Positions 674 to 20,757 of a stretch of 36,280 nt of DNA are shown one piece after another. The notes beneath the pieces were generated by a model that saw nothing but the letters and a program-made list of their open reading frames with translations, had not been told where the DNA came from and ran no database searches. Numbering within the stretch: position 1 is the stretch's first letter; each line of letters opens with the position of its first letter. The DNA is taken from positions 1 to 36,280 of the forward strand of contig CAIWJG010000706.1 in the NCBI GenBank assembly GCA_903912925.1, read 5' to 3'. This DNA is from an uncultured Verrucomicrobia subdivision 3 bacterium. Its GTDB lineage: Bacteria; Verrucomicrobiota; Verrucomicrobiia; Limisphaerales; UBA8199. The translations under genes and the position numbers were made by a program.

Positions 674-827
674 ATGCGACCTCAAAGCCACCCCAATGCG
701 ACCCTCATGCGACCCTCATGCGACCCTCATGCGACCCACATGCGACCCACATGCGACCCTCATGCGACCCTCATGCGACCCTCATGCGACCCTCATGCGA
801 CCCTCATGCGACCCCCATGCGACCCTA
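674..827. repeat. 11-bp tandem array, unit ATGCGACCCTC
   Basis: Twelve consecutive 11-bp units run from 696 to 827, most of them ATGCGACCCTC, with ATGCGACCCAC at 729-750, ATGCGACCCCC at 806 and a final ATGCGACCCTA at 817. A 22-bp precursor-like unit at 674-695 combines ATGCGACCTCA with AAGCCACCCCA, and degenerate AAGCCACCTCA pieces extend back to about 590. Because 11 is not a multiple of 3, every forward frame reads the same 11-residue cycle MRPSCDPHATL, which creates several overlapping false ORFs. Units follow each other directly with no spacers, so this is not CRISPR. Apart from these repeats I see no gene between 416 and 931. Confidence 0.9.
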
Positions 828-900
828 AGGCTCTCACAAAGCGCCAACAATGCGACCTTCATATGGGACGGAGTCAAACCAGAGGTCTTACAAGTGTCAC

Positions 901-921
901 TCCTCACTCGCCAAGTGAGGA
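901..921. terminator. Perfect 8-bp hairpin near the end of the toxin remnant
   Basis: TCCTCACT at 901-908 pairs with AGTGAGGA at 914-921 around a 5-nt loop. It lies just beyond the stop codon of the minus-strand toxin remnant (932), so it could end that transcript. No T-run follows on either strand, so the terminator role is a guess and it may only be a repeat palindrome. Confidence 0.3.
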
Positions 922-931
922 CACCTTGTCG

Positions 932-1123
932 TCAGCAAGCTGACTTACCGGCAAGCGAGGCGGGAACGGAGAGGAAATACCCTTTGCGCCGAATTATACA
1001 GGGAATAGGGAGAGGCCGAGAAGTTTCGCGGGCTGGGTCAGCCGCCGCCTTTTGGGCGAAGTCGGCGGAGTCGGGCTCTGGGAGGTACAGCTTGCCAAGC
1101 GTGGAGGTGTCCCAGTAGCTCAT
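932..1123 (-). pseudogene. Truncated PIN-domain toxin (VapC-like)
   Basis: The ATG at 1123 lies four bases past the antitoxin stop. The product begins MSYWDTSTLGKLYLPEPDS, the first strand and helix of a PIN-domain RNase toxin, whose first conserved acid is the Asp in WDTS. After about 28 residues (ending near DFAQKAAA) the sequence no longer resembles a PIN domain and it stops after 63 codons. Intact VapC toxins run to about 130 residues and need further acidic residues in the middle and C-terminal parts, which are missing. The tail runs into non-coding hairpin DNA, so a deletion or replacement removed the rest. Upstream spacing and orientation still match a toxin-antitoxin operon. Confidence 0.65.
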
Positions 1124-1127
1124 GCCC

Positions 1128-1376
1128 TCAGTTGCCGCGGTCTTCGTCGAGAATCTGTTCGAGGGTGGGGCCGGTCTTGCCAGTGGAGAGCCGCTGGCGC
1201 AACTGGGCGAGCTTCGCGAGCCAAGCCTGCCGGTTCGGCGCTGGGTTGGTCTGCGGGACACCCGTGAGCTTAGCCACCGGGCGGCCGTGGCTGGTGATGA
1301 CCACTTCTTCGCCTTGTTGGACCATGCCCAGCAATTTCACCAAGTCAGCTTGTGTTTGTTCCAACGTCGCAGTCAT
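1128..1376 (-). CDS. Phd/YefM-type antitoxin
   Basis: This 82-residue protein carries the compact Phd/YefM fold: an N-terminal region MTATLEQTQADLVKLLGMVQ followed by GEEVVITSHGRPVAKL, the beta-strand and turn with the G-R-P-V-A-K/R-L signature. Members bind DNA as dimers through the N-terminal half to repress their own operon and neutralise a toxin with the C-terminal half, here the segment from about residue 45 to LEQILDEDRGN. The toxin gene directly downstream (start at 1123) is truncated, so this antitoxin seems to be an orphan. The start at 1376 gives the usual family length. Such solitary antitoxins can persist as local repressors or as protection against related toxins, but nothing here shows either. 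Confidence 0.85.
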   Translation of the reverse strand: MTATLEQTQADLVKLLGMVQQGEEVVITSHGRPVAKLTGVPQTNPAPNRQAWLAKLAQLRQRLSTGKTGPTLEQILDEDRGN

Positions 1377-1460
1377 GCAGCCATATAACCACTTTCGGAC
1401 CGGAAGTCAATTCAACGATTGGGGGCTTCAAGCCCAGGCAGCATCTGACAAGAACAGTCC

Positions 1461-1494
1461 TTATCCGCGTATATCTGCGTCCATCTGTGGTTGT
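1461..1494. repeat. Short decamer-like repeat (ATCTGCGTCC type)
   Basis: The stretch has a loose 10-bp period: TATCCGCGTA, TATCTGCGTC and CATCTGTGGT. I believe similar strings recur between genes in related genomes, but only this copy is present in the window. It lies between the antitoxin start and the glycosidase start. Confidence 0.35.
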
Positions 1495-1631
1495 ATGGAT
1501 TTGTTGCGACTCAGCGGCGGGCACGTGCGACGGCTGGATCAGGAGCTCTCCCAGCCGTAACCCGCGGCTTGATGTTCCACCCAGGAGGCATAGATTCGCG
1601 GGAAGTGACACCGACACAAAAGCAGTTCTCC

Positions 1632-4337
1632 ATGAATAGCGGAGCGCCCAAAAGGAGGGTGCTGGCCAATCGGCTGGCAACCTGGCGAAGTGTGTGCGTT
1701 GCCATCGCCGCCACCGCGTCGACGCTGGCAGGGGGTGGTTCTCAGTTGCTGAACGCTCAGCCAGGCTCTCTTTCTCCGGGAGGGGGCGAGATCCAATCAC
1801 TCGGTCGGGCGTCGAAGGTGGTCGCCGTAGAAGGGGCATTCGGCAAGGTTGAGGTGGATGTTACCCGGCCTTCGCTCGTCCGATTATGCCTGGGCACACC
1901 CAAGGGACTGGGCGCGCAATCCCTCTTGGCTACTCAAGGGCCACGCCCGTGGGCGCACGGCGGCTACACGTACGTGGTGGCCGAAGCCGGCAAGCGTTAT
2001 GAGAGCTGTCTGCTGGAGCCGGAGCAGGTGAAGGTCACCCGGGAAAGCGGACGCAATGTGCTGCGAGTCCTCGGCGTCAAATTGGCTGGCGACGGCGAGT
2101 CGCCGGTAGCCACGGAAGACTGGACGCTCAGCGCCCCCGGCGACGGGTCGCAATTGGTGTGGAAGATCGTGCGCCGGTGGCAACGGGACTTCACGTCCAC
2201 GTATTCCGGCAGCCCGGGGCTCTTCTTCTCGTTCAAACGCGAGCAAACAAACTCCACCACCAGCACGATGTGGTACGATCCGTTGCGCATTGCGGCGAGC
2301 GAAAGCAAGCTCTACGCCTTGCAGCACTTGCCCGGACGCATTTCGGAGAACCTCGTGCAGACGCTGCGCGACCGCGACACCTGGGCAATCTTCAAGCTGT
2401 GGACCACTTGGCAGACCCCGTGCGATCTTCGCCTGGAAGTTGCGGGCGGGCATCTGTATCGGCGGGGCAGTTACGCCCAGTTGAGCGAGGTGGGCGCGGT
2501 GACCGACCCGAGCCCGCGCGCGACCCACCGGAAAGGCCAGGTCGAAGATATCACGCTCCGGATCGGCGGCGTGGACAAGAGCGCCACCGGATACCAGTTG
2601 GCTCTCACCTTGCCCGACAAGGATACCGAGGCTTCGCTCCGCGACTTCTACGGGTCCGTGTTCAACGGCGGGGCGGTGAACGACCAGAAGGGCTTCGACT
2701 TCGGCAACGAGTCGGACGGCTGGTATTATGCCGGCTCGTGTTGGATGTACGGGGCGACGCTGGCGGCGGGGGTTCCGGCTGCCGGCCGGTTGTCGGCGCA
2801 CCCCTACGACGCGGCCCAGGCCTTCCGCGAGCATCTGGCGCACATCTTCAGCGTCATGGACGAGCGGGGGCGGGCCCATTTCGGCTACAACCAGGAAGGC
2901 CAATGGGTGGACGATAACCTGCATGTGATCATCGGCGCTCGCTTCTACCTGCTCCACAGCGGCGATCTGGCGTTCATCCGTGAGTGCCTGCCCGCCATGG
3001 AACGGACTTTGGGGTATTTCATCGAGCGCCGCAACCCGCAGGGGCTGTTCAAGCTGGAGGATGTCGGTGCCCATTGGTATTACGACGCCATCACCACCGG
3101 CGGCATCAACGGCTATTACAATGCGTTCTTCTACAAGGCAGCGCTCGACCTCGCCGAGATGGAACACGCCGCCGGACGCCAGGCGCAGGCTCGCCAATAT
3201 CGAGACCTGGCCGAATCGATCAAAACGGCGTTCAACCGGGTGCTCTGGAAGGAAGACGCTCCGGGTGGACCGCGCTACCTCGATTGGATCGACGCGCAAG
3301 GACAGGAAGTCTCCTATTTCTGCGATTTGTGTCAATGGCCGCCGATTGCCGTGGGGATTGCCTCGCCGGAGCAGGCCCGCAAGATCGTCGCCACGGCCGA
3401 TGCCCGCATCGCCCAACTGGAAAAGGAGCACGGCTACCAGGGCTACGCCGGCCTGTCGGCCTTGTGGCCGGTGCCCCAGCCGCTGAATCCGCTGGCGTGG
3501 CAAACCTACGGTCGCTACATGAACGGCGGCAGCCTGCTCTGCCAGACGTATTGGGAGATCGTGGCCCGGTCCCGAGCCGGGGATGCGGCGGGGGCGGCTC
3601 GACGCTTGCAGCGATTTGCCAAGCGGGCGGCGGAGATCCGCTGGGCGGGTGACAATGCGGCGGACATCCTCGGTGAGATGAAGCACGGCGATACGGAGCC
3701 CTACCTGGCTGATATGGTGGCCGTTACCGCCGCCGCAGTCCACGGGGTAATGGGGATCCAGCCGACCTGGGATCAGCTCGTCGTGACGCCGTGCCTGCCG
3801 GTTGAATGGCCGCGGGCGGAGGCCGACGTCCTCTACAAGGGCCGGCGTCATCGCGTGACGATTGAAGGCGGGACAGTCCAGGTGCAGCCGCTGGAGCAGG
3901 TGATCGCGCTGCCGCCGTTTTGGCTGATGGACTTTAACCTCCGCAAGACGGCCGAAGGGGAAGCGCAGACCACCAACATCAGCTTTCTGGGACATTACGG
4001 CGACCGAATCCAACTTAGCACTAACGCCACGTCGGGCTCCTATCTGAGCCCGGCTCATGACTGGGCCATGCTGGCCATTCCCAAGGAGTTGACTGTCGCC
4101 GCCGATTTGAATGGCGGCCGGATCTCTGTCGCCGTCGAAGCCTCCGACGACGGATTCAAGTCGGTGCGAGCGCAGACGAAGCTCTCCGTGCGGGACGGCG
4201 TGAAGGCGTATTCGTTGCGGGGCTTGCGCGGCCACGCAGTGCGCGTGCGGTTTGAACTGCTTCGGCAGCGAGGGGCCGCCGCCTCGCCGATCGTGGACGG
4301 GTTCCGTCTGGTCTGCCCGGGGCCAGCGCGGTTCTAA
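1632..4337 (+). CDS. Secreted six-hairpin glycosidase-like protein
   Basis: The protein is 901 residues from the ATG at 1632, chosen because a typical export signal follows (basic MNSGAPKRRVLANR, then an alanine-rich core, likely cut near LLNA/QPG); the frame is open upstream to 1491 but that part looks non-coding. Residues about 50-320 are beta-rich. Residues about 330-700 look like an (alpha/alpha)6 barrel with repeated aromatic and acidic helix starts, such as GWYYAGSCWMYGATLAAG, QWVDDNLHVIIGARFYLL and GINGYYNAFFYKAALDLAEM. A C-terminal beta domain follows (from about 705, GIQPTWDQLVVTPCLP). This order is found in six-hairpin glycosidases such as GH63/GH78/GH95-like and amylo-1,6-glucosidase-like enzymes. 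I cannot fix the family or the catalytic acids. It probably trims plant- or algal-type sugars in the periplasm or outside the cell. Confidence 0.75.
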   Translation: MNSGAPKRRVLANRLATWRSVCVAIAATASTLAGGGSQLLNAQPGSLSPGGGEIQSLGRASKVVAVEGAFGKVEVDVTRPSLVRLCLGTPKGLGAQSLLATQGPRPWAHGGYTYVVAEAGKRYESCLLEPEQVKVTRESGRNVLRVLGVKLAGDGESPVATEDWTLSAPGDGSQLVWKIVRRWQRDFTSTYSGSPGLFFSFKREQTNSTTSTMWYDPLRIAASESKLYALQHLPGRISENLVQTLRDRDTWAIFKLWTTWQTPCDLRLEVAGGHLYRRGSYAQLSEVGAVTDPSPRATHRKGQVEDITLRIGGVDKSATGYQLALTLPDKDTEASLRDFYGSVFNGGAVNDQKGFDFGNESDGWYYAGSCWMYGATLAAGVPAAGRLSAHPYDAAQAFREHLAHIFSVMDERGRAHFGYNQEGQWVDDNLHVIIGARFYLLHSGDLAFIRECLPAMERTLGYFIERRNPQGLFKLEDVGAHWYYDAITTGGINGYYNAFFYKAALDLAEMEHAAGRQAQARQYRDLAESIKTAFNRVLWKEDAPGGPRYLDWIDAQGQEVSYFCDLCQWPPIAVGIASPEQARKIVATADARIAQLEKEHGYQGYAGLSALWPVPQPLNPLAWQTYGRYMNGGSLLCQTYWEIVARSRAGDAAGAARRLQRFAKRAAEIRWAGDNAADILGEMKHGDTEPYLADMVAVTAAAVHGVMGIQPTWDQLVVTPCLPVEWPRAEADVLYKGRRHRVTIEGGTVQVQPLEQVIALPPFWLMDFNLRKTAEGEAQTTNISFLGHYGDRIQLSTNATSGSYLSPAHDWAMLAIPKELTVAADLNGGRISVAVEASDDGFKSVRAQTKLSVRDGVKAYSLRGLRGHAVRVRFELLRQRGAAASPIVDGFRLVCPGPARF

Positions 4338-5827: not shown

Positions 5828-5961
5828 CAGCGATTCTCATTATGGACGAGATGGGGGCGCCGGGTGAGGGCACCCGGCCTACAAGCGGGCGATTTTCCGG
5901 GAGATGTAGGCCGGGTGCCCACACCCGGCGGGGGGTGACAGGGCCATAATGAGAACTGCTG
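5828..5961. repeat. Inverted pair of REP-like palindromes (REPIN/MITE-like), copies 2 and 3
   Basis: The left arm 5828-5883 and right arm 5905-5961 are close reverse complements, beginning CAGCGATTCTCATTATGG and ending CCATAATGAGAACTGCTG. Each arm holds a perfect 8-bp stem: GCCGGGTG/CACCCGGC at 5859-5866/5871-5878 and at 5910-5917/5922-5929. The whole can fold into one long hairpin. The outer sequence ATAATGAGAA(T/C) is the same as the right end of the element at 13735-13814, so it is one family. No clear flanking duplication is visible here. It separates the propeller gene from the prp operon. Confidence 0.8.
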
Positions 5962-11641: not shown

Positions 11642-13702
11642 GTGGGGGTTGACCGCCCCAGGCGAGGTCTGGGTGACTGCGCACTCCACTTGAACACGAT
11701 CACAGACAACCCAGCTCCGGGTGCACCGAGCGGTGCCGGGGTTTCGCCTGGGCCCGCGAATCCGTCCGGTCCTTCGCCGGCCACAACGGGTGCTAGCTTG
11801 CCCTTTGACCCGTGGCGATTGCTTGCGGCGCTAAGGCGCCGGTGGCCGATTATTCTGGCCGCTGGCGGAGTGGTCGGGGGGCTCCTGGGGGTGGCGGGCC
11901 ACTTCATGTTCAAGACCAGTTACGCGGCCGGTGCGCAACTGATGCGGCAGGAATCTGCGGCAAGCTTCCGCGCCTCAGAGGTCGGCGAACCTTTCACGCC
12001 CCGCCAGCTTTCCGTCGCGACCCTGGTGAGCTTTATGCGATCATCGGCGCTGGTGCAGCGTTTGGCCGAGCAGACGCGGATTCCCGCGCGCGCCATCGTC
12101 CGCGGTCTGACCATCGCGCCCGAGCGCAACACGGATTTGATCAACCTCACCTTTGCCTCCACCCAGAGCCCGGAGACCGCCGTGCGTATATTGAACGCGT
12201 TCGGCAACGAGGTGGTGCGGCTCACGCGCGACATGCAGTCGCAGGAGTCCGCCGCGATGAACCGCATGTTGAAGCGGCAGATCGCCAAAACCGAGGACGA
12301 ACTGCGCGCGGTGAATCAAGAGCTGCTCGATTTCTCACGGCAGACCGGAATTATCAACGCCGACAGGGAGATCGAAGCCTACTTGCGCAGCCTCGGCGAC
12401 TTCGATATGCGGCTGCAGACGGCGCGCATTGATTACGAAACGCTGGACTTGAAGATTGGCGACTTGGAGCGGGAGTTGTCCGCCAACAATCCGCTCGCCG
12501 AGCACGTTCAGGCGGCGCGTGACCGGCTGAACGAGCTGTTGCAGCAATACACGGATTCCAATCCGTATGTTCTGGAACAGAAGGCCAATTTGGCGGAACT
12601 GGAAGCGCGGCTGAAGGAATCCGAGGGCAAACCTGCCGCGCCGCCACGCCAGAGCGAGACCGGAATCGCCACGAGCTTCTATGTCGAGCTCCTAAACCTG
12701 AGAACCCAGAAGAAGGTCACTGCGGCACAGGTCGAAAAGCTCAAGACCGTGAGCGCGGACTTGGGGGAAAAACTGCGCGGCCTGCCCGAGAAAGACATGC
12801 AAATGGCCCGGATCAAGGCGCGGCGCCAGTCGCTGGAGGTCTCCCAATCGCTGCTCGCCAGCCGCCAGCGGGAGGCCCAGCTCTACGAGGATAACGCCCT
12901 GGGCTATTACCGTTTCTTTGAGTCGCGGCTGGATGAGGTCGAGCGGGCCGAACCCGCTAAGAAGCTGGTCATGCTCGCTCTGGGCGGAGTCGTTTTTGGC
13001 GCTCTTTTTGCCGTTGCCTTCGTGTGCTTGGTGGAATCCCTCGACGACCGCATCAAGACCGCTGCGGATCTGAAGCGTGTCAGCAAGCTGCCGCTGCTGG
13101 CAACCATGCCCGACCTCGCTGCCCTCGACGGGGTGGCGCAATCGAACTGGGCCTTCTCCACCTGGCTCGCGCTGCAGGCCAAGCTCGCTGCCGGTCCCAA
13201 TGGCGAGGTGGTCAGCGGCTTTGTTTCCGCCAGCCTCCACGAGGGCTGTTCCACGTGGGTCGAGCTGCTCGCCCGCGCCGCCAGCCAGCGCAATGAATCG
13301 GTGGTGGTCGTGATGAATCGCCCGCCCGTCACGGGCACCGCGATACCGCTCGCCGAGGCGCTCGCCCATCCCTCCCGAGTGGCGGCCGAGCCGGGCCGCA
13401 CTCAGTGGCTCCTGGCCCCTGCCGACTGGCGCTGGGACACTGAGCGGCGGCGGCAGTGGCAGGCCGCCCTCGAAATCTGGAGTCACACCGCGGAGCTGGT
13501 GGTGCTCGCCGAACTCACGACGGCCGACCAATCCGAAACGCTGCTGTTCGCGGAGCGACTGCCCCATCTTATCTGGCTCGCCGGCAGCGGCATGTCGCGC
13601 ACCCACGGCACCAGCGAGCGTTTGCAAACCTTTCAAAATGCCGGCTGCCGCTTTGCCGGCGCAGTGCTCAATCGCGAAGTGAAGTTGTTCCCGTGGCTAT
13701 GA
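11642..13702 (+). CDS. Polysaccharide chain-length/co-polymerase protein (Wzz/GumC type) with degenerate tyrosine-kinase domain
   Basis: An inner-membrane protein that would set chain length and link synthesis to the outer-membrane exporter. After a Pro/Gly/Ala-rich N terminus it has LLAALRRRWPIILAAGGVVG with the first membrane span at about 69-90, a long periplasmic coiled coil (about 200-430, rich in Glu, Gln, Leu), and a second span at about 442-464. The cytoplasmic part (about 520-686) aligns in outline with BY-kinases, but the P-loop reads HEGCST (533-538) where EGKST is expected, the next strand ends VVVVMNRP instead of an Asp-rich Walker A' motif, and no Tyr cluster follows. It therefore probably lacks kinase activity. 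The start is uncertain: GTG 11642 or TTG 11690. Its stop overlaps the ancestral start of the next gene (ATGA, 13699-13702). Confidence 0.85.
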   Translation: MGVDRPRRGLGDCALHLNTITDNPAPGAPSGAGVSPGPANPSGPSPATTGASLPFDPWRLLAALRRRWPIILAAGGVVGGLLGVAGHFMFKTSYAAGAQLMRQESAASFRASEVGEPFTPRQLSVATLVSFMRSSALVQRLAEQTRIPARAIVRGLTIAPERNTDLINLTFASTQSPETAVRILNAFGNEVVRLTRDMQSQESAAMNRMLKRQIAKTEDELRAVNQELLDFSRQTGIINADREIEAYLRSLGDFDMRLQTARIDYETLDLKIGDLERELSANNPLAEHVQAARDRLNELLQQYTDSNPYVLEQKANLAELEARLKESEGKPAAPPRQSETGIATSFYVELLNLRTQKKVTAAQVEKLKTVSADLGEKLRGLPEKDMQMARIKARRQSLEVSQSLLASRQREAQLYEDNALGYYRFFESRLDEVERAEPAKKLVMLALGGVVFGALFAVAFVCLVESLDDRIKTAADLKRVSKLPLLATMPDLAALDGVAQSNWAFSTWLALQAKLAAGPNGEVVSGFVSASLHEGCSTWVELLARAASQRNESVVVVMNRPPVTGTAIPLAEALAHPSRVAAEPGRTQWLLAPADWRWDTERRRQWQAALEIWSHTAELVVLAELTTADQSETLLFAERLPHLIWLAGSGMSRTHGTSERLQTFQNAGCRFAGAVLNREVKLFPWL

Positions 13703-13803
13703 AACTATCCTCGCTGTTTCGGGTAACTCTGGCGGCAATTCTCACTGTGGAGGAGATGAGGACGCCGGGTGCCCTCACCCGGCGGGGGGTGACAGGGTCA
13801 TAA
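13699..13803 (+). CDS. 34-codon leader ORF left by insertion at the start of the first wza gene
   Basis: ATG 13699 overlaps the upstream stop (ATGA) and reads MKLSSLFRVTLA, a good export-signal beginning, before entering the inserted palindrome and stopping at TAA 13801-13803. That TAA overlaps the ATG of the export gene (TAATG, 13801-13805). If the insert and one copy of its 12-bp flank are removed, the frame joins directly to LAFAVAVAPWAALA of the export gene. It is thus the displaced original start of that gene. Translation of this leader may couple to the downstream start. Confidence 0.7.
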   Translation: MKLSSLFRVTLAAILTVEEMRTPGALTRRGVTGS

Positions 13804-13814
13804 TGAGAATTGCT
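13735..13814. mobile_element. 80-bp REP/MITE-like insertion flanked by a 12-bp direct repeat (copy 4 of the family)
   Basis: The element starts GCAATTCTCAC and ends ATAATGAGAATTGCT, giving near-perfect terminal inverted repeats, and it carries the stem GCCGGGTG (13764-13771)/CACCCGGC (13776-13783). It is flanked by identical GTAACTCTGGCG at 13723-13734 and 13815-13826. The inner part GGCGGGGGGTGACAGGG and the ATAATGAGAA end match the right arm of the paired element at 5905-5961. The GGGGGGTGA run lies about ten bases before the ATG at 13803 and can serve as a ribosome binding site. No transposase is encoded, so it would need help in trans. Confidence 0.8.
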
Positions 13815-14843
13815 GTAACTCTGGCGCTCGCATTTGCCGTGGCCGTGGCCCCTTGGGCCGCTTTGGCCGCGCCGGAGGGCGTCATTCCCGTCGTGCCCAA
13901 ACCCGAGGCGCCGCAGGTTTTCGCCGGTTCCAACGCCAAGACGAAGGCCGCTTGGCAGACCCGTTACACCCTGGGGCCAAATGACGTCGTCAGCTTCGCC
14001 TTCTATGGCCGTCCGGAGTTGGCGCGACCCGATGTGCTCATCGGACCGGATGGCCGGGTGGGCTACATGCAGGCACAGGGCATCATGGCCAGCGGCCTCA
14101 CGATTGATGAATTGAGGGAAACGGTGACGGCGGAATTAGCGAAGTTCTATCGCCGGCCACGAATCATAGTGACCCCGGTGGAATTTCGCAGCAAGAAGTT
14201 CTACGTTCTGGGCAAGGTCGTTAACAAAGGCGCCTACACGCTGGAGCGGCCGATCACGATCATCGAAGCCATCGCGCAAGCCGGCGGGCTGGAAACGGGA
14301 CTCTTTCAGCTCAACACGGTCGAAATGGCCGATTTGCCCCGCAGCTTCCTCATCCGCAACCAGCAGCGCGTAGCCGTCAATTTCGAGAAGCTGTTCCGGA
14401 ACGGGGACCTTTCGCAGAACATTTTCCTCGAACCGGACGACTATCTCTACTTTCCATCCTCCAGCGCCAACGAGATTTACGTGCTCGGCTCGGTGAGGTC
14501 GCCCGGCGCCCAAGGCCTGGACATGGACGCGAGCGTGTTGGGAGCGATTACGCTGGGCGGCGGTTTCGCGGAGCGCGCTTACAAACAACGAGTGCTCGTC
14601 GTGCGCGGCGGACTCGAGAATCCGAAGCGGTTCGTAGTGAACCTCGCAGACGTGCTGGCCGGCAAAGCGCTCGACTTCCGGCTCGAGCCGCGCGACATCG
14701 TTTACGTTTCCGACCAACCGTGGTCGCGCGTCGAAGACCTCGCCGACATGGCGGCGACGTCGTTCATCCAAGCCATGGTCACTATTTGGACCGGAAAAAG
14801 CATTGGTCCGGTTATCAAGAACCCGTTTGTCCCCACCCTCTAA
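13803..14843 (+). CDS. Polysaccharide export protein, Wza/GumB family (first paralogue)
   Basis: This 346-residue exported protein would form the outer-membrane or periplasmic channel for the polysaccharide. A signal peptide spans roughly 1-20 (MRIAVTLALAFAVAVAPW, cut after AALA). The Poly_export domain begins TLGPNDVVSFAFYGRPEL and continues to RRPRIIVTPVEFRSKKFYVL; SLBB-type beta-grasp repeats follow, YVLGKVVNKGAYTLERPITI and YVLGSVRSPGAQGLDMDASV. No lipobox Cys is seen, unlike its paralogue at 15450-16547, with which it shares near-identical blocks such as NIFLEPDDYLYFPSS. The present start ATG 13803 and its first four codons come from an inserted element; the original start was ATG 13699. 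The reading frame of the signal peptide was preserved in sense, so the gene is likely still functional. Confidence 0.88.
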   Translation: MRIAVTLALAFAVAVAPWAALAAPEGVIPVVPKPEAPQVFAGSNAKTKAAWQTRYTLGPNDVVSFAFYGRPELARPDVLIGPDGRVGYMQAQGIMASGLTIDELRETVTAELAKFYRRPRIIVTPVEFRSKKFYVLGKVVNKGAYTLERPITIIEAIAQAGGLETGLFQLNTVEMADLPRSFLIRNQQRVAVNFEKLFRNGDLSQNIFLEPDDYLYFPSSSANEIYVLGSVRSPGAQGLDMDASVLGAITLGGGFAERAYKQRVLVVRGGLENPKRFVVNLADVLAGKALDFRLEPRDIVYVSDQPWSRVEDLADMAATSFIQAMVTIWTGKSIGPVIKNPFVPTL

Positions 14844-14857
14844 TAGCAATCGCTTTT

Positions 14858-15460
14858 ATGAATACTCTGAAACCTAATCCGGTCATTGTGAGCGGAGACA
14901 ATTTGGCCGAGGCCTTTGCGCCGATGCTTGCTCGAAAGCAAGACAAAGAGAATGCCCGCGTGCCGCTGTTTGCCAATGCTTCGCTCCGGCGCGTATTGCT
15001 TCACGTGGCGGTCGCTTCGGGCGCTTGGCTGCTCTATCTTGCCGTGGTGCGGGAAACCCCTGGTTTCTGGACGAATGCCGGCGGATACCCGATCTGGCTT
15101 CGGGAAACGGCTAGCTGTTACTATCCCATGTTATTCGGCCAGGGGGCCCTCATGGTCTTTGTTGCCTCCAGCATGCTGTTGGGACCTTCCCAATCGGTCC
15201 GCGAGTGGTGGGCGGAGGCCGCACTGCTGGCGCTGGTTGGCTTCCTGGTCCTCGCCTCGGGGGTGGTAACCATCGCCGACAATCTGACCGATTACATTGA
15301 CGGCAATCCGCCTGGGTATCATCACCAACACATCCCCGCTTTCAAGCCGGAGGAGTCATCCGCAATCCAGCCGCTAGAGATCATGGGTTGGGCTAAGTAT
15401 GCTGTCGCTGAGCTGGGTTCTTCCCCCAACATTCCGGGCCCGAAATCGTATGTGCTCTAG
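14858..15460 (+). CDS. Unknown membrane protein inside the polysaccharide export cluster
   Basis: This 200-residue protein is not one I recognise. ATG 14858 is chosen because it follows the upstream stop by 14 bp and leaves the hydrophilic N terminus MNTLKPNPVIVSGDNLAEAF; the frame is open further upstream, but that overlaps the previous gene. Three likely membrane spans are seen: about 48-64 (VLLHVAVASGAWLLYLAVV), 90-107 (LFGQGALMVFVASSMLL) and 121-140 (AALLALVGFLVLASGVVTIA). Between the first two spans there is an extracytoplasmic-looking loop, and the C terminus is about 60 polar residues with a His-rich GYHHQHIPAF segment. It lacks the features of an exosortase or Wzx/Wzy. Its stop overlaps the next gene by 11 bp, so it is part of the operon and probably serves export. 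Confidence 0.7.
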   Translation: MNTLKPNPVIVSGDNLAEAFAPMLARKQDKENARVPLFANASLRRVLLHVAVASGAWLLYLAVVRETPGFWTNAGGYPIWLRETASCYYPMLFGQGALMVFVASSMLLGPSQSVREWWAEAALLALVGFLVLASGVVTIADNLTDYIDGNPPGYHHQHIPAFKPEESSAIQPLEIMGWAKYAVAELGSSPNIPGPKSYVL

Positions 15461-16547
15461 CAGTCTCATCTCGAGGGCGGTCGGTCTGACGCGATGCGCC
15501 GCCGTCTCCCTCGGAGTAATGCTTCTCATCGGCTGCAAAACCACCAAGTCAACGTTTGATCCGCGAGTCTCGCAGAGGTCCGCTGGCGGCTCGACCAACC
15601 TTTTCGTGAGCGCGACCACGAACCAGATCAAGCCCGATTGGCTCAAACCCTCCAGTACCCCGTTTATTATCGGCCCTGGCGACCGGCTGGATCTGGAAGT
15701 GTTGGGCAGATCGGGCACGCGCGGCGCCACGTTCGTCTGCCCGGATGGGAAGATTTACTATGACCTGCTGCCGGGATTGGAGGTTTGGGGATTAACGCTG
15801 GCCGAAACAAAACAATCGCTAGAACGCGAGCTGGCAAAGTATTACACCCGGCCGCAAGTATCGATCGCGCTGACGAGTGTCGAAAGCAAACGGGTCTGGG
15901 TGCTGGGCCGGCTCAACAAGTCCGGGATCTTCCCCCTGAGCGGCCCCATGACGATTATCGAGGCCATCTCGCGTGCCGGGGGACTTTTCACCTCGCGTTT
16001 TAGCGGCACCACCGAGGAACTGGCCGACCTCAATCACAGCTTCATCATTCGCAATGGCGAGATGTTGCCCGTGAACTTTCAGAAGCTGCTCCGCGCGGGA
16101 GACACTTCCCAGAATATTTATCTCGAGCCCGATGATTTCATTTATCTGCCCTCCTCCCTTTCCTCCCAGGTCTTTGTACTGGGCAGGGTTAATGGGCCAC
16201 GTCCGATCGGATTTGTTGACAACATGACGCTGACAACTGCCATCGGCAAGGCGCTTGGCACAGCGCCGGACGCCCACCTTTCCCAGGTGGCGATTGTGCG
16301 CGGCTCGCTCACCGAACCAAAGATCGCGATCGTGAACCTCGCGGCGATCCTGACTGGCCGCGCCCCGGATGTGCTCCTCCAGGCCCGGGACATTGTTTAC
16401 GTGCCCCAATCCCCCTATCGCACGCTCGAACGCTACGCGAAAATGATCACCGACACCTTCGTGCGCGCCGTCGCTGCGAATGAAGGCGGCCATGCCGTTG
16501 ATTCGGGTTTCACCGGTGTGGGGGTGAGCACTCCGATCGGGCAATGA
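15450..16547 (+). CDS. Polysaccharide export lipoprotein, Wza/GumB family (second paralogue)
   Basis: ATG 15450 begins a 365-residue lipoprotein: after SRAVGLTRCAAVSLGVMLL comes the lipobox LLIGC with Cys 29. An upstream ATG (15399) is possible but gives a poorer signal. The Poly_export part is FIIGPGDRLDLEVLGRSGTR to YYTRPQVSIALTSVESKRVW, and two SLBB repeats follow (WVLGRLNKSGIFPLSGPMTI and FVLGRVNGPRPIGFVDNMTL). The layout and the blocks FQKLLRAGDTSQNIYLEPDD and ARDIVYVPQSPYRTLERYAK match the first paralogue closely, so the two arose by duplication around the small membrane gene. Lipidation suggests that this copy sits in the outer membrane like Wza, while the unlipidated one may be a periplasmic or lid partner. 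It overlaps the gene before it by 11 bp. Confidence 0.9.
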   Translation: MCSSSLISRAVGLTRCAAVSLGVMLLIGCKTTKSTFDPRVSQRSAGGSTNLFVSATTNQIKPDWLKPSSTPFIIGPGDRLDLEVLGRSGTRGATFVCPDGKIYYDLLPGLEVWGLTLAETKQSLERELAKYYTRPQVSIALTSVESKRVWVLGRLNKSGIFPLSGPMTIIEAISRAGGLFTSRFSGTTEELADLNHSFIIRNGEMLPVNFQKLLRAGDTSQNIYLEPDDFIYLPSSLSSQVFVLGRVNGPRPIGFVDNMTLTTAIGKALGTAPDAHLSQVAIVRGSLTEPKIAIVNLAAILTGRAPDVLLQARDIVYVPQSPYRTLERYAKMITDTFVRAVAANEGGHAVDSGFTGVGVSTPIGQ

Positions 16548-19212: not shown

Positions 19213-20757
19213 TTAGGTCAGGAGGTAATTGTCCATGCGCAGAATGCGCAGCACGTTCAGCACTGCCGGCTGCGGCGCGGTGAACTTAAGCTGGATGCCG
19301 CACAGCCGCGCCTGCTTGCGCAGCCGCACCATCAACCGCACGCCCGTGCTGTCCACGAAGCGGACGTCGGCGAGGTTGATGTTCATCTGGTATTGCCCGT
19401 CTGCGCCTGGCTTCGGCGCGGCAAGCCCGTCTGCGTCTGGCTTGTCCAGGAGCAGGGTCGTCATGCGCCAGACCTGCTCCTCGTTGGCGGCCACGATATC
19501 ACCCTGCCAGGCCACCACCTCGTGCGGTCCGGCCAGGTTCAACGTGCTCACGACGCTTGGCTCGTCCCGGCGGTCATGAATCAAAATCCGAGCGGCCGTG
19601 AGGTCTGCCGCCAGCGGGAAGAATTCGGTCAGCCGCATCAACGCCAGCGCGCGCAAGACCGGCTTCGTCGGCGCGACCAGCACCAATTGACGCCCGTTCG
19701 CCCGAAGCTGTTTTTGCAGCCGCACCAGCAATCCCACGCCGGTGCTGTCCAGGAACTGCACCGCGGACAACTCGAAGATGACGTGGGCTTCGCTGGTCGG
19801 CAGGCCGGGCCAGAGTTTGGCGTGCTCGCGGACGGTGGCGACATCGAGGCGCTCGGCGAAGCGGACGACCTGGTAAACGCCGTTTTTCGTGGACTGGGCG
19901 ACGACGCGGTTGGCTTGTTGCGCGTGACTGCGCAGGCTGCGGAGTTGCCACCACTGGCGAAGAATGACGACCCCGAACACGAACAAGTCGCTGAAGTAGC
20001 GACGGAACAGACGCTGCGGTTCTTGCAGCAGGCGGTAAACCCACTCTAATCCCGTGCGCTGCATCCAGGGGGGGGCGCGCCGCACCAGGCCGGCGAGAAA
20101 ATCAATGGTCGCCCCCACCCCGATGCTCATCGGCACGCCGGCGAGATGAAGGTGCATGGATATCCACTTTTCCTGTTTGGGGCAGCCGAACGCCACGAGC
20201 AGGATGTCCGGTTTGGCCTCGCGCACGCGTCGGAGAATGTCCTCCTGGTCCATTTCGAGCAGCGGCTTGAACGGCGGCGAGTAAGCGCCGACGAGCTTCA
20301 GGCTCGGATGGCGGGCCCGAACATTCCGGGCCGCGCGGGCGACGCTCTCATCGGTGCCTCCCAGGAAAAACACCCGCCAACCTTTGTCCGCCGCCGCGGC
20401 GAGAAGTTGCGGCACCAGGTCCGAACCGGTGACGCGCTCCGGCAGTGGATTGCCCAGGAAGCGCGAGGCCCAGACCAGCGGCATACCGTCGCACAAGACC
20501 AGGTCGGCCTCGGCGAGAATGCGCCGCAGCTCGACATCGCCCAAAGCCTGCACCGCGAAATCCACATTGGCCGTCGCGGCATAATGGGGCCGGCCCGACG
20601 CAATCATGTCGCTGATGAGGCGCAGCGCGTCCGCGGCCGTGACCCGGTCGAACGGCACCCCGAGCATGGCAATTGGGGAAGGAGGCGGAGGAGCGGTCGT
20701 GGTGCGTGGTGCGTGGTGCGTGGTGGAGCAGGGGGGCGACAATTGTAGGGTGGTCAT
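19213..20757 (-). CDS. GT26 glycosyltransferase (WecG/TagA/CpsF) fused to two STAS domains
   Basis: Residues about 31-245 form a WecG/TagA domain: MLGVPFDRVTAADALRLISD, ATANVDFAVQ with the conserved Asp 66, EADLVLCDGMPLVWASRFLG, VFFLGGTDES, LLVAFGCPKQEKWI, GVGATIDFLAG and RAPPWMQRTGLEWVYRLLQE. Such enzymes add an N-acetylmannosamine-type sugar to a lipid-linked precursor. Two STAS domains follow, at about 294-393 and 400-514. Each keeps the anti-sigma-antagonist centre, VQFLDSTGVGLLVRL (DSTG 337-340) and VRFVDSTGVRLMVRL (DSTG 469-472), in which the Ser is phosphorylated in SpoIIAA-like proteins. I know of no standard enzyme with this layout. The first 30 residues (TTHHAPRTT region) come from a heptamer repeat, so M31 at 20667 may be the true start. 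The gene start is duplicated upstream by a repeat insertion. Confidence 0.88.
   Translation of the reverse strand: MTTLQLSPPCSTTHHAPRTTTAPPPPSPIAMLGVPFDRVTAADALRLISDMIASGRPHYAATANVDFAVQALGDVELRRILAEADLVLCDGMPLVWASRFLGNPLPERVTGSDLVPQLLAAAADKGWRVFFLGGTDESVARAARNVRARHPSLKLVGAYSPPFKPLLEMDQEDILRRVREAKPDILLVAFGCPKQEKWISMHLHLAGVPMSIGVGATIDFLAGLVRRAPPWMQRTGLEWVYRLLQEPQRLFRRYFSDLFVFGVVILRQWWQLRSLRSHAQQANRVVAQSTKNGVYQVVRFAERLDVATVREHAKLWPGLPTSEAHVIFELSAVQFLDSTGVGLLVRLQKQLRANGRQLVLVAPTKPVLRALALMRLTEFFPLAADLTAARILIHDRRDEPSVVSTLNLAGPHEVVAWQGDIVAANEEQVWRMTTLLLDKPDADGLAAPKPGADGQYQMNINLADVRFVDSTGVRLMVRLRKQARLCGIQLKFTAPQPAVLNVLRILRMDNYLLT
20698..20725. repeat. 7-bp tandem repeat (CGTGGTG), four perfect copies inside a gene start
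   Basis: Four exact copies of CGTGGTG lie within the N-terminal part of the GT26-STAS reading frame and code for its His/Ala/Pro/Arg/Thr-rich segment. They lie ahead of the first conserved GT26 residues, so they do not disturb the enzyme. Confidence 0.85.

Follow-up and report, generated by a model that had tools for sequence, protein, structure and literature searches.

The translation start of a wza-like polysaccharide export gene in an uncultured Verrucomicrobiota-type bacterium (genome of 8.8 Mb in 997 contigs) was most probably moved by the insertion of a MITE, which would have supplied both a ribosome site and an in-frame ATG, leaving the gene working and coupled to its upstream neighbor through a short leader. 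We give this reading a probability of about 0.83. It is built on the observed anatomy of the insertion, the family and its target-site duplication across the genome, relatives that lack the element, and the reading frames; from these we infer that the new ATG is used, that translation is coupled and that the gene continues to function.

The window (the whole stretch of DNA analyzed, 36,280 nucleotides) carries a wzz-like gene followed directly by the export gene (Table 1). The stop codon of the first (TGA, 13700-13702) overlaps an ATG at 13699-13701; its product matches NCBIfam TIGR03007 with E=7.1e-24, under that model's curated cut-off, and has no match in Pfam. The second product contains Poly_export (Pfam, 5.2e-14) together with SLBB domains, and is Wza-like in that PF02563, PF22461 and PF10531 all exceed their curated cut-offs. 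A second Wza-like gene, seen in the ORF list and by domain search, lies downstream of the first at 15399-16547.

Table 1. Features of the wzz/wza junction (window coordinates)
Feature	Position	Strand	Basis
Wzz/Wzc-like polysaccharide chain-length determinant gene	11642..13702	+	ORF list; start codon uncertain
Old start ATG with its present leader (34 codons, stop TAA 13801-13803)	13699..13803	+	Translation; relatives have the homologous overlap (ATGA)
Target-site duplication, left copy, TAACTCTGG	13724..13732	+	Exact match to 13816-13824; family register
MITE of 83 bp: terminal inverted repeats, inner hairpin (13763-13784)	13733..13815	+	Inverted repeats, family alignment, genome copies
Shine-Dalgarno-like GGGGGGTGA, element-borne, 10 nt before the new ATG	13784..13792	+	Sequence; common to many family right ends
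Putative new start ATG in the right terminal repeat, forming TAATG with the leader stop	13803..13805	+	Sole candidate start in interval
Wza-like gene for polysaccharide export (346 codons; signal peptide MRIAVTLALAFAVAVAPWAALA)	13803..14843	+	ORF list, Pfam
Target-site duplication, right copy, TAACTCTGG	13816..13824	+	Family register

An earlier note on this DNA had described a REP-like palindromic element of 80 bp flanked by two identical 12-mers (GTAACTCTGGCG, 13723-13734 and 13815-13826). Both the 12-mers and a palindromic element between them are present, but the element measures 83 bp and the true duplication 9 bp, the 12-mer being the 9-mer plus an extra G and an extra CG that match by chance. 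The 9-bp register of the window copy follows from other copies of the family, in which the 9-bp duplications lie directly against the same CAGCA...TGCTG ends, and this rules out a 12-bp duplication. The family terminal inverted repeat is CAGCAATTCTCATTATGG; in the window copy its arms are 15 nt long and 87% complementary, and they are better conserved in other copies, from which the element at the junction differs at several positions of the family alignment. The duplication that flanks it is still perfect. With terminal inverted repeats, a target-site duplication of fixed length, a short sequence, many copies and no transposase gene, the element is a MITE. REP sequences share with this family their shortness, palindromic structure and high copy number; however, they have neither true terminal inverted repeats nor a target-site duplication of fixed length, whereas the family has terminal inverted repeats abutting a fixed 9-bp duplication, and the label REP-like was therefore dropped.

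The earlier note had also proposed looking for more copies in the genome, and these were found in numbers far beyond chance. The 80-bp core has 77 matching places in the window's own genome, and the terminal sequence AGCAATTCTCATTATGG occurs there at 370 ends (≤2 mismatches) versus 0 for a reversed-pattern control. In a survey covering a subset of the loci behind these ends, we counted the 49 copies that were complete with both flanks and took the 9-mer immediately outside CAGCA...TGCTG; the duplication was exact in 26 of the 49 and had at most one mismatch in 31, against a random expectation of ~1e-4 per copy. Copies span 83-391 bp, the chief length classes being 83, 134, and 114-150 bp in ~9-bp steps. 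Counting this genome, 17 of the 97 genomes searched carry the terminal sequence, with ~177 ends in one other. When the 10 DDE_Tnp_1 loci of the own genome were searched for a parent transposon, none was flanked by paired MITE ends. A candidate parent, a HipA-like gene enclosed by two family ends that point outward, 1.85 kb from each other (L137:792-2638, G045), has no matching 9-bp duplication and was set aside. The window itself holds a second family copy of the 134-bp class at 5828-5961, which has no matching 9-bp duplication. A sister subfamily in the same genome (L174, L190, L177) is built on a 9-bp repeat, with members of 114, 123, 132, 141 and 150 bp, and element plus duplication always adds a multiple of 3; its copies within genes stop the frame and then re-offer an ATG in the same frame.

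Relatives of the export protein reach 81% identity in a scan of genome collections. Seven of them lack the element (L087, L089, L090, L091, L092, L097 and, from a different collection than the others, L032), and in all seven the Wzz stop overlaps the next ATG as ATGA and the signal peptide is continuous. In L087, for example, ...LFPWL and a stop are followed by MKSFWNRLGRGVVAARLVGILAPGG..., and the corresponding sequence of L092 is MKLLPAWAVLLTATVLFLSAGAGARAQ. The earlier note had predicted an empty site with a joined signal peptide and a single copy of the repeat; the ATGA overlap and joined peptide were found as predicted, and the exact site with a single TAACTCTGG was not, the relatives being too diverged (the closest 81% identical). 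Nor are the 83 bp a conserved part of the gene family, the other finding that would have spoken against an insertion. Given the 9-bp duplication in many copies and the element-free relatives with ATGA, the insertion itself is nearly certain.

In other relatives (L093, L096, L099, L101, L104, L105, L106, L109 and L113), Wzz-like and Wza-like sequences share one open frame of ~970-1040 codons, so tight linkage of the two products is common in the group; all nine (L101 at 802-3924) look like fusions of the chain-length determinant to the export protein. In L088 (74% identity; 2600-3120), the ATGA overlap of Wzz stop and ATG is followed by repeat DNA unrelated to the MITE, and the frame stays open from the ATGA start through the repeats into the export protein. 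One of these repeats, a palindrome of 73 bp, matches at 36 places in that genome. Unrelated repeats have thus reached the same start region in independent events, a hint that the exported protein tolerates insertions at its very N-terminus.

At the junction in the window, removing the element and one repeat joins the old start in frame to the export gene (MKLSSLFRVTLALAFAVAVAPWAALAAPEG...), as the earlier note had worked out; its coordinates for the overlap of ATG 13699 with the Wzz stop, the leader stop and the overlapping ATG were likewise all confirmed, as was its placing of the new ATG and the ribosome-site-like sequence inside the element. The insertion adds 92 bp (83 + 9), which is not a multiple of 3, and the leader from the old start reads MKLSSLFRVTLAAILTVEEMRTPGALTRRGVTGS and then a stop. 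ATG 13803 is the only in-frame ATG, GTG or TTG between the stop at 13680 and a GTG at 13839, which sits in the hydrophobic core of the signal peptide; we looked for an alternative start upstream, between 13680 and 13803, and there is none. The signal peptide is as hydrophobic as the joined version (11-residue maximum of 2.71 at present and 2.68 when joined). The start of the export gene has likely been replaced by that of the element, and the sequence points to use of ATG 13803 in the cell. The G-rich core of the Shine-Dalgarno (SD)-like sequence is 12-13 nt from this ATG, a long spacing, and in folding predictions, which place strong hairpins across the junction, the SD-like sequence and the ATG are both mostly paired. 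A search for the anti-SD in the genome's own 16S gave no match, so that its pairing with GGGGGGTGA is putative. Because of the long spacing and the predicted pairing, simple initiation at 13803 is doubtful, and re-initiation at TAATG by ribosomes that have read the leader would be the likelier route.

The events can be pictured as follows. The start of the wza-like gene would originally have overlapped the wzz stop as ATGA; the MITE would then have inserted into the signal-peptide codons, with duplication of its 9-bp target, and thrown the old start out of frame. Its right end, GGGGGGTGA-N8-TAATGAGAATTGCTG, would have brought in a ribosome site and, in frame with the export gene (ATG AGA ATT GCT GNN), an ATG, so that the new protein would begin with MRIA and continue into an intact hydrophobic core and cleavage region. 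Ribosomes leaving wzz would most likely translate the leader and melt the element's hairpin, stop at the leader TAA and re-initiate on the overlapping ATG, and coupling would be kept in two steps. Counting against this explanation, an in-frame ATG would arise here by chance in about one third of insertions, of which only the survivable ones could come to our notice.

Downstream sequence is available for 62 distinct right-end-like copies, and in these the element ATG begins three genes, encoding the export protein, an epimerase and a permease. The LivM-type permease (L182) begins MRVALKKHW at the element ATG; taking away element and duplication rejoins ATG AAC GCG GCC CTC AAG AAG in frame (MNAALKKHW); with the element in place, the former start begins a leader that crosses it as far as TAATGA, overlapping the new ATG. 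Its duplication matches at only 6/9 positions, which suggests an older insertion in a gene that is still open. The NAD-dependent epimerase (L026) begins MRIAAQHILVTGGAGFIG at the element ATG. In alignments with its homologues (up to 81%), the match mostly sets in no earlier than residues 4-8; the contig starts within the element. The family has thus apparently given genes start codons at least twice more in this genome. Open frames of ≥200 codons after the 62 ends number 7 in frame 0 and 2 and 3 in the other frames, small numbers, and in frame 0 some have a later start of their own; the long frames at L023, L029, L165 and L176 were set aside as start donations, since they look like chance in-frame extensions of genes that start further on. 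For insertions inside frames, 8 of 13 joined frames match the frame of the element ATG versus an expected one third, but several of the spanning frames may be spurious and we do not claim a phase bias. A broader proposal, that the right end (GGGGGGTGA plus TAATG) is a portable re-initiation cassette that lets operon genes survive insertions at their 5' ends, has repeatedly replaced native starts (wza-like, LivM-type, epimerase) and forms part of the element's success, is one that we regard as rather doubtful.

The insertion might instead have damaged the gene, with a weak or unused new start, much reduced Wza output and a good signal peptide left by chance after a recent, slightly harmful event. 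The perfect duplication would fit this, as would the predicted pairing of SD and ATG, family copies that interrupt the frame in other genes (L190 and L174, for example) and the second Wza-like gene, which might compensate. Yet the 346-codon frame is open and its domains are intact, though the element differs from other copies at several positions, and two further genes start at the same element ATG; we consider damage quite improbable. An effect on the mRNA, in which the hairpin lowers or uncouples wza relative to wzz expression by way of partial termination or RNA stability, with the start shift as a side effect, is also unlikely, if slightly less so. Strong hairpins are indeed predicted over the junction, and small repeats of such kind have been proposed to act on the mRNA of neighboring genes (PMC2759123; PMC2229807), but no T run follows the hairpin, and the in-frame ATG and stop/start overlap would go unexplained, even if this reading is compatible with them. 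That two loci were joined at a repeat during metagenome assembly could be imagined from the 997 contigs, many of which end in an element of this family; the identical 9-bp duplications on both sides, and the direct succession of wzz and wza in relatives, are what a single insertion would leave, unlike a chance join, and make such an artefact extremely improbable.

The closest precedent is the RU-2/YPAL element in Yersinia YPO1552, a MITE that forms part of a signal peptide (Delihas, 2007; PMC2759123; reviewed in PMC2229807). There, the repeat's own frame gives about the first 30 residues and the signal sequences of homologues are unrelated, whereas at wza the element would give only ~4 residues, the SD and the ATG, with the old signal core kept and the old start now opening a leader whose stop overlaps the new start. 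Rickettsia palindromic elements (RPE; Ogata et al., 2000, as cited in PMC2229807) likewise place a palindromic mobile sequence within protein-coding genes. RPEs, however, stay in frame and are translated as an added peptide (PMC2229807); at wza the old frame stops and translation would restart, and an RPE-type insertion is ruled out by the leader stop at 13801 and the 92-bp gain. In the open-licence literature, our search turned up no report of an operon gene that gets both its SD and its start from a MITE.

Unless the whole family proves to be a portable start, the junction is better seen as a fine natural example than as a new principle. Together with its element-free relatives, it offers a worked example of a small transposon that would move an operon gene's translation start while frame and export signal are kept. 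With at least three genes in one genome having seemingly taken their start codon from one family, the frequency and cost of start replacement become measurable. In annotation, a start codon within a terminal repeat may be mistaken for the ancestral one. Other repeats in the window include a tandem array at 668-826 (11-bp unit, 14.5 copies) and several more whose period is 7 or 8 bp, at 20698, 27510, 29831, 30560 and 35340.
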